Shown here: positions 10,442-11,669 of the stretch, in pieces | Numbering within the stretch: the first letter of the stretch is position 1 | Layout of the letters: every line of letters begins with the position of its first letter | Source of the DNA: Pyrobaculum islandicum DSM 4184 | GTDB lineage: Archaea; Thermoproteota; Thermoprotei; Thermoproteales; Thermoproteaceae | Reading direction: 5' to 3' | DNA length: 64,000 nt | Assembly: GCF_000015205.1 (NCBI RefSeq) | Contig: NC_008701.1 | Coordinates: forward strand, 1,429,436 to 1,493,435 | The notes under the pieces: model-generated | What the model was told of the DNA's origin: nothing | Databases searched by the model: none | Seen by the model: only the letters and a program-made list of their open reading frames with translations | Translations under genes and position numbers: made by a program

Positions 10442-10819
10442 TTACTCTTTATACATCGATCTATCTCCGAAAAACGCCTCGACTTTCTGCGGTTTCAGCT
10501 TTGATACTATATAGTCAAATGCTGCTTTAGGATCTGTATGATCGCCGCAGGTATAAACATCTACAGTAGCAAAACCGTACTCAGGCCACGTATGAATAGA
10601 AATGTGGCTCTCTGCAACTATTGCAAAGACTGTAAGACCTCCGTTAGGCCCAAATCTATATGAACCTACCGATAGAAGCATGGCGTTGGCTATCTTGGTT
10701 GCCTCCTTGATGATAGTAATGAGGGCAGACTCATCTCTCAATATCTGGGGGTCGCATCCATAGAGATTGCCGTAGATGTGTCTCCCCACTACTACCCTAG
10801 CCCCCACGCCCCCCGCCAT
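10442..10819 (-). CDS. speH: pyruvoyl AdoMet (or arginine) decarboxylase
   Basis: 125 residues. AESHISIHTWPEYGFATVDVYTCG contains the Glu-Ser autocleavage site that creates the pyruvoyl group, His in SIHTWPE and the catalytic Cys in YTCG. This family makes decarboxylated AdoMet for spermidine synthesis. In Crenarchaeota a close paralogue is an arginine decarboxylase, and the two cannot be separated here by eye. The ATG at 10819 (MAGGVGARVVVG) has a TATA (ATTTAAAAAGTT, 10838-10849) 25 nt upstream; a longer TTG-started form would lie too close to it. Confidence 0.87.
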   Translation of the reverse strand: MAGGVGARVVVGRHIYGNLYGCDPQILRDESALITIIKEATKIANAMLLSVGSYRFGPNGGLTVFAIVAESHISIHTWPEYGFATVDVYTCGDHTDPKAAFDYIVSKLKPQKVEAFFGDRSMYKE

Positions 10820-10965
10820 GTTTTCTGCGCAAATTCGCAATTTAAAAAGTTAACCCCCAAAAACCCTTATACTACAGATTTGTTCTTGCAGACACCATAC
10901 TTGTAAAATATCTAAAAGCTCGTTTAAAAAATTAGAGAGTTAAAACCGAGGACTTTTGAAAAATT

Positions 10966-11061
10966 TTACCACTCTTCTTCTTCCTCCCACTCTTCTTCAA
11001 ATTCCTCCCACAGCTCCTCTTCTTCTTCCCATTCTTCCTCTTCTCTATACAAAATCGGCAT
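10966..11061 (-). CDS. 31-residue Glu/Trp peptide
   Basis: A tiny reading frame from ATG 11061 to TAA 10966. It begins MPILYREEEEW and then consists almost only of Glu with Trp at 11, 18, 25 and 31, plus Leu17 and Phe21: 19 Glu and 4 Trp in 31 residues, with one Arg. Trp 11/18/25 are exactly seven apart, so one face of a helix would be aromatic and the rest acidic. A strong TATA (TATTTTTAAATA, 11079-11090) sits 24-25 nt before the ATG. It lies 146 nt upstream of the decarboxylase gene in the same direction, which has its own TATA. Function unknown. Confidence 0.6.
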   Translation of the reverse strand: MPILYREEEEWEEEEELWEEFEEEWEEEEEW

Positions 11062-11078
11062 AGACCCCCGAAATCTGC

Positions 11079-11090
11079 TATTTTTAAATA
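11079..11090 (-). promoter_or_regulatory. TATA box of the Glu/Trp peptide gene
   Basis: TATTTTTAAATA is centred 24-25 nt before the ATG at 11061 on the minus strand. It may also serve the divergent gene: the ATG at 11100 is only about 16 nt away, whereas an in-frame GTG at 11109 is at the standard 25 nt. Confidence 0.5.
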
Positions 11091-11099
11091 TTCAGACAT

Positions 11100-11669
11100 A
11101 TGGCGAAGGTGAGAAAAGCATATGTTCAGGGCCTTTTACAAAGGCGTGTGAAATACCGCATAGATCTCACCGAGCCAGTTACAATAAAGCAGTGGCTGTC
11201 TGAACGCCTCTGCCAACTGAAAACTTTTCTCGAAGAGGAGTGGAACGCCGTTATGTGTCTATCGGAAACGCCGCCGAGTCTGGGTCTGTTATTAATAGAG
11301 TGGCATGGGGGACATATATTAGCAGACGTCTCAATTTGTGCTCCGATATCCCACCCAAATCCTCCACCTCTGGCAATCGAAGTTGCTGTAAAGAGGATAG
11401 ATGTGTGTGTAGAGCCTATCGCGCCGATGTCGCCGCCTGTGGAATATGTAAAATTATATACGCCTGGTGTAAAAATGTTAGGTAGAATTACGCTGAGACA
11501 ACGCTATGCGGTGATAAAACATAGAGGACTTCTATTTGCAACAGAGGTTATTTACACGCCAGATGTGAGAGGCGGTGTCGAGTTAAAATTGGCGCGGTAT
11601 AAGTGTTCGTCTTACGACTTTGGAAAAGCTCTAAGAAAGCTAAAAGCCATTCTATATTCTAGGTATTGA
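11100..11669 (+). CDS. hypothetical protein
   Basis: 189 residues with a very basic N-terminus (MAKVRKAYVQGLLQRRVKYR), a mixed alpha/beta body and a basic C-terminus (KALRKLKAILYSRY). There are no transmembrane helices and no motif I recognise. Its stop TGA overlaps the ATG of the following zinc-ribbon protein (TGATG), so the two are co-translated and probably share a task. The start may be GTG 11109 judging from promoter spacing. Confidence 0.6.
   Translation: MAKVRKAYVQGLLQRRVKYRIDLTEPVTIKQWLSERLCQLKTFLEEEWNAVMCLSETPPSLGLLLIEWHGGHILADVSICAPISHPNPPPLAIEVAVKRIDVCVEPIAPMSPPVEYVKLYTPGVKMLGRITLRQRYAVIKHRGLLFATEVIYTPDVRGGVELKLARYKCSSYDFGKALRKLKAILYSRY

Follow-up and report, generated by a model that had tools for sequence, protein, structure and literature searches.

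The locus raises the question of whether a very short open reading frame consisting essentially of glutamate and tryptophan codons encodes a protein, and if so, with which cellular process that protein is connected. The frame lies in the window, i.e., the whole stretch of 64,000 nucleotides that was analyzed, which is part of the genome of Pyrobaculum islandicum (1,826,402 bases). It is situated upstream of and parallel to speD, with a gap of 143 nt to the speD ATG at 10822:

10966–11061, minus strand: gene of the EW microprotein, 31 amino acids (MPILYREEEEWEEEEELWEEFEEEWEEEEEW), ATG start, TAA stop
10442–10822, minus strand: speD, S-adenosylmethionine decarboxylase (PF02675, E 1.9e-37)

The initial annotation had described an ATG-initiated ORF of 31 codons with 19 Glu and 4 Trp, of which Trp 11, 18 and 25 are seven residues apart, in a parallel position upstream of a polyamine-synthesis decarboxylase gene. 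Both the composition and the position were confirmed, the fourth Trp being the last residue (position 31).

Near-identical EW peptides were found at the equivalent place in 10 Pyrobaculum genomes, so that a conserved short ORF exists at this locus in relatives, and together with the neighboring gene U189 also in five Thermoproteus genomes. Within the 19-codon core, 0/19, 0/19 and 15/19 columns were variable at codon positions 1, 2 and 3, respectively (14 Thermoproteaceae sequences), and pairwise comparison of these 14 genomes gave 587 synonymous versus 26 non-synonymous differences, the few amino acid changes within the core being replacements of Glu by Asp. The approximate omega is 0.006–0.013, a range set by the assumed transition bias, and thus lies at about 0.01 and not near 1. 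Past the stop codon, conservation falls in the locus alignment. A chance low-complexity ORF is ruled out by the codon-position pattern, and a composition scan for EW-like frames in 101,811 bp (the window plus unrelated loci) recovered only the window's own. An RNA element was also considered and rejected, as Rfam gave no match at the locus. Another frame overlapping the gene is open over 55 amino acids (10932–11099 minus) and rich in Lys/Arg because the GAR and TGG codons of EW, when shifted by one, read as Lys, Arg or Gly. It was discarded as the true gene since the variable third positions of EW are amino acid changes in this frame, which indicates that selection acts on the EW frame. Gene callers could wrongly choose the 55-residue frame over EW. 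Judged from these substitution patterns, the EW ORF is a genuine protein whose sequence is strongly constrained by purifying selection.

On its other side EW is bordered by U189, which begins 38 bases from the EW ATG on the opposite strand:

11062–11070, minus strand: conserved element CGGGGGTCT (CGGGGGGTCT in most Pyrobaculum), directly before the EW ATG in the alignment of eight Pyrobaculum loci
11081–11088, no strand assigned: TATA-like box TTTAAAAA, whose center lies 23 nt upstream of the EW ATG and, on the other side, 24 nt from the candidate GTG start of U189
11100–11669, plus strand: U189, divergent uncharacterized gene, constant neighbor of EW in Pyrobaculum and Thermoproteus, with four invariant Cys

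Among 15 Thermoproteaceae genomes, 14 have the center of the TATA-like box 23 or 24 nt upstream of the EW ATG, in agreement with the earlier claim that the ORF has its own promoter, and in about 11 of the 15 a start codon of U189 is found 19–27 nt from the same box on its other side. The spacing kept on both sides suggests that EW and U189 probably share one bidirectional promoter with near-leaderless starts; the true start of U189 is probably the GTG at 11109. The conserved CGGGGGTCT element may represent a Shine-Dalgarno-like or a promoter element. One genome (G006, locus L052), presumably P. aerophilum, has about 700 bases between EW and U189, with the TATA box retained by EW.

After U189 come two ORFs (assigned by eye), one for a Zn ribbon of 62 residues and one for an aconitase-like product of 873 residues. 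U189 itself is confined to the Thermoproteaceae and is present in 17 of 61 relatives. It had no sequence match in Pfam, NCBIfam or the PDB. Despite a confident AF2 model (pLDDT 93.7), its fold was uninformative as a clue to function, as a search against PDB folds returned no match (best E 0.04, TM at most about 0.35).

The adjacent speD had led the initial annotation to consider a peptide that binds or senses polyamines. Such a role would agree with the strong negative charge of EW and with its parallel position next to speD, which is limited to Pyrobaculum and two of the five Thermoproteus genomes. However, the other three Thermoproteus genomes (L064–L066) carry EW and U189 together at a locus without speD, and no speD link was found in any other family examined, where ABCE1 is the main neighbor, besides THUMP, TFS-like Zn-ribbon and asparaginase genes. 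A polyamine-responsive uORF of AdoMetDC would occur in the decarboxylase leader wherever it is present, whereas EW is away from speD in L064–L066. speD is outside the conserved context of the EW family, and a polyamine function is thus not supported and very improbable. Two speD paralogs exist in the window genome (10442–10822 and, in genome coordinates, 1551116–1551460) and in most relatives.

The distribution of EW extends well beyond this genus. When one genome per GTDB species was searched for exact DNA matches to the 10-codon motif WEEFEEEWEE, 16 loci were obtained, all of which belong to the Thermoproteales; a viral origin was discarded, as the motif had no match in viral contigs. The relaxed codon pattern EEWEEE matched 230 of the 398 genomes of Thermoproteota species, and far fewer when read backward as a control. 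Nearly all EW loci read are stand-alone frames of about 20–80 residues made up of Glu (some Asp) and spaced W, F or L (e.g., MIFEEEDDWEEGEDEEWEEEEW). The distant family f14 repeats the substitution pattern of the Thermoproteaceae, with 1, 1 and 7 variable columns at the first, second and third codon position, respectively (last eight codons, 26 genomes). Vulcanisaeta and related MAGs have an EW peptide (...EEWEEFEEEWEEEL or ...EEEF; the Vulcanisaeta peptide ends in Leu) divergent to a THUMP-domain gene. In f31, apparently the Sulfolobaceae, the loci were found by looking upstream of ABCE1; one 30-residue frame (...LVFEEDWEEEFEEFEEEEDWEEEEDWEEEW) ends about 60 bases before ABCE1 in a genome of 2,225,959 bases, which we take to be that of S. 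acidocaldarius DSM 639.

EW had no match in Pfam or NCBIfam and no sequence match in the PDB, and five EW microproteins compared to Pfam at E values up to 10 also remained without a match, a test limited by their low complexity. The motif is absent in an archaeal context from the open-licence PMC literature, an earlier description elsewhere being possible. EW is apparently an undescribed family of archaeal microproteins of 20–80 residues. Because of the low complexity, homology of the distant ORFs is unprovable by alignment and convergence is possible; the argument therefore rests on position, orientation and C-terminus, in an uneven phylum sample with 26 f14 loci among those compared. The window peptide has all three features of the family, being short, mostly Glu with spaced aromatics, and terminated by an aromatic residue, and the linkage to the ABCE1 cluster, absent from the window genome, is seen in the sister genus g2.

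Of the 117 EW loci, 112 have W (82), F (18) or L (12) as the C-terminal residue. W or F occupies this position at 100 of the 117 loci and at most loci of 30 of the 36 families, and the residue is Trp in 15/15 Pyrobaculum and Thermoproteus loci. Compared to an internal share of aromatics of 16%, the C-terminal enrichment of W/F has a p of about 7e-19 when calculated by family. The heptad stripe of tryptophans proposed initially holds for the window peptide, but this spacing is not conserved across families, in which successive W, F, Y or L residues are mostly 3–8 and most commonly 4–5 residues apart. The conserved property of EW is the combination of spaced aromatics in an acidic chain with an aromatic last residue.

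ABCE1 is an essential ribosome-recycling ATPase with two Fe-S clusters. In an all-against-all comparison of the neighboring ORFs at EW loci, its gene (identified by PF04068 and ABC domains) formed the largest cluster. A first count placed ABCE1 near EW at 45 of 72 loci, and a stricter N-terminal query at 48 of 117 loci from 21 families, 47 of these with EW upstream on the same strand. When the f28, f31 and f15 loci (found via ABCE1) and those of f3, f8, f9 and f12 (found via THUMP) were left out, 15 of the 30 families found without reference to ABCE1 had this gene within about 1.2 kb downstream of EW on the same strand, for which the chance is about 1e-31 under simple assumptions: a single ABCE1 gene in each genome, an inspected stretch of a few kb, and independence of the families. 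Reciprocally, an acidic-aromatic frame occurred near 19 of 70 ABCE1 loci, versus one (the window's own) in the 101,811 bp background. The typical gene order is a divergent THUMP gene, EW, a TFS-like Zn ribbon (PF02150) and ABCE1; in f14 it is asparaginase, EW, ABCE1. A frame of about 926 residues at ABCE1 (f22 g38, L298) was considered as a natural EW-ABCE1 fusion and rejected, as the 1 kb read at its start contained no EW segment. Several families possess ABCE1 without a recognizable EW (e.g., most f16, f24 and f53 genomes), and ABCE1 thus does not universally need EW.

Pyrobaculum, the genus of the window, has no ABCE1 close to EW. In the Thermoproteaceae genus g2 (L324, L325), EW (MRPFLMEEELWEEEEFEEFEEWEEEEEEW), the TFS-like gene and ABCE1 follow each other on one strand, with THUMP about 5–6 kb away on the same contig, and EW-TFS-ABCE1 is also kept in genus g7 of f2 (L323). 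The best reading of the Pyrobaculum/Thermoproteus gene is therefore that it belongs to the ABCE1-linked family and was relocated. In genus g2, U189 occurs at a separate locus without EW, and it is probably the newer neighbor. These arrangements also bear on the idea that EW is a partner of U189 only, forming with it a two-gene unit of the Thermoproteaceae that is functionally unrelated to EW elsewhere. The adjacency of both genes and their common TATA box in Pyrobaculum and Thermoproteus would fit such a unit, but its dissolution in g2 and the presence of WEEFEEEWEE in Vulcanisaeta, whose genomes lack U189, render this idea decidedly improbable.

In many genomes ABCE1 or speD follows EW directly on the same strand, and EW might then be a cis-acting leader peptide whose Glu-rich nascent chain would destabilize the translating ribosome (intrinsic ribosome destabilization, IRD), report ribosome stability, Mg2+ or polyamine supply, and control the next gene. 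D/E-rich N-terminal nascent chains indeed abort translation in E. coli and yeast, an effect counteracted by Mg2+, and the acidic IRD leader peptides resemble EW as short ORFs that are D/E-rich from the N-terminus and often precede another gene (PMC9718836). However, the exact W/F positions and the C-terminal aromatic residue of EW are conserved, neither of which is required for IRD. Furthermore, the leader position seen at many ABCE1 loci is not found throughout, as Vulcanisaeta and the Thermoproteus genomes G012, G015 and G018 have no credible gene in the same direction after EW, and in g2 the TFS-ABCE1 genes have a TATA-like sequence of their own downstream of EW. Control in cis by a leader peptide is accordingly considered improbable.

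The neighbor sets of EW also hold THUMP, TFS-like and asparaginase genes, and its functional partner could thus be another member of the cluster. EW may in this case be a general acidic nucleic-acid mimic or a chaperone for a basic protein (DSS1-like, SSB-tail-like, aromatic-anchored), with partners drawn from the THUMP/TFS/ABCE1 cluster other than ABCE1 itself. Its composition and aromatic spacing appear similar to those of DSS1/SEM1 and acidic SSB tails, it is divergent to the THUMP gene in several families, and EW segments also form the tails of Zn-ribbon proteins (L225, L226, L233) and of a protein of about 90–117 amino acids in the window genome. Nevertheless, no such family was matched in Pfam at E values up to 10, and the linkage of EW to ABCE1 is much stronger than that to any other gene, so that we regard this explanation as possible but rather unlikely.

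The window genome contains three copies of the latter protein (L061–L063; 586497–586754 minus, 1159612–1159881 plus and 1069134–1069397 plus in genome coordinates), whose C-terminus is an EW segment (...EEELWEEFEEEWEQEDEWEEEWEEEEEW; in one copy truncated to ...LWEEFEEEW). At least one of them is located beside a TnpB/Cas12f-like gene (PF07282), and their N-terminal domain was not found in relatives. In L233 (1327–1605), a LysW-like Zn-ribbon domain (PF21344) runs into a long Glu/Trp tail with Trp as last residue. The small Zn-finger-like proteins L225 and L226 carry Glu/Trp tails with Asn in place of Trp at the end and possibly represent a separate use of the same tail type.

The reading we prefer, with about even confidence, is that EW is a trans-acting acidic microprotein that docks on a partner by its aromatic C-terminus and acts with ABCE1 or the ribosome, this last step being suggested only by gene neighborhood, which by itself does not amount to a physical interaction. 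Once translated, EW would be largely disordered when free: at growth temperature, a Glu chain lacking Lys/Arg should be mostly unfolded, and EW is thus most likely a linear-motif ligand. Its acidic body would bind a basic, RNA-facing protein surface and its aromatic C-terminus would lock into a pocket, the site of action presumably being ABCE1 itself or a ribosome to which ABCE1 is bound. The Pyrobaculum and Thermoproteus gene would have moved to the U189/speD region, with its product acting in trans. Two versions are conceivable. EW might help, as a minimal adaptor or chaperone, to insert Fe-S clusters into ABCE1, with its C-terminal [DE]-[WF] acting like the C-terminal Trp of Lto1, or it might mimic, or compete with, the acidic, aromatic-ended aP1 stalk tail that binds ABCE1 and translational GTPases.

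Peptides as short as EW are usually missed by annotation, and its composition of almost only Glu, Trp, Phe and Leu belongs to no known family. The broad distribution, the near-zero omega, the near-invariant aromatic C-terminus and the ABCE1 linkage suggest that a component of ribosome recycling or of ABCE1 maturation in archaea has been overlooked. The microprotein family appears to be new, and its frequent position beside ABCE1 points to ribosome recycling rather than polyamines, a link that can be tested. Sulfolobus acidocaldarius is a genetically tractable species, and the 30-residue copy just upstream of ABCE1 in its presumed genome makes the question directly testable.

Among known systems, DSS1/SEM1 is a small acidic disordered protein with spaced Trp/Phe. 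It resembles EW in size, acidity and spaced aromatics, and action by mimicry would be conceivable; however, DSS1/SEM1 contains a D/E mix, whereas EW is nearly E-only and without a Pfam match. The aP1 tails (such as KKEEEVDLSGLSGMFGF) bind aEF1A (PMC6791870), and binding of the aP1 tail to aABCE1 is cited there. Like EW, the aP1 tail is an acidic stretch ending in aromatic or hydrophobic residues, but EW lacks the stalk dimerization domain and the GLSALFG / LSGLSGMFGF (LSxLFG/GMFGF-type) motif and carries many aromatics along its whole chain, the window peptide being essentially E/W. A looser precedent for EW and ABCE1 than Lto1 or aP1 is provided by eIF3j/Hcr1, which assists ABCE1 (PMC7196836). 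The C-terminal Trp of Lto1 recruits the assembly complex for Rli1/ABCE1 (PMC4523923), and of the targeting tripeptide [LIM]-[DES]-[WF]-COO- only the last two positions are conserved (PMC10623007). EW and this Yae1-Lto1/CIA system have in common ABCE1/Rli1 as the gene concerned (for EW by genomic linkage alone) and a C-terminal Trp, replaced by Phe in some organisms, that is preceded by an acidic residue. The last position of the tripeptide is matched by W/F in 100 of 117 EW frames and the penultimate one by the E that precedes it in the listed EW sequences, the window's included, but the third-last residue is Glu (or Asp) instead of L/I/M in nearly all of them, and Gly repeats like the deca-GX3 motif of Yae1/Lto1 occur in no EW sequence. 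For these reasons EW is not filed as an Lto1-type member; the CIA targeting complex is eukaryotic and is not known from archaea. By analogy, EW might still be the archaeal counterpart of the Yae1-Lto1/targeting-tripeptide system, with its [DE]-[WF] end recruiting Fe-S assembly machinery to ABCE1; we consider this unlikely, but if it were true, the C-terminal aromatic targeting code would predate the eukaryotes.
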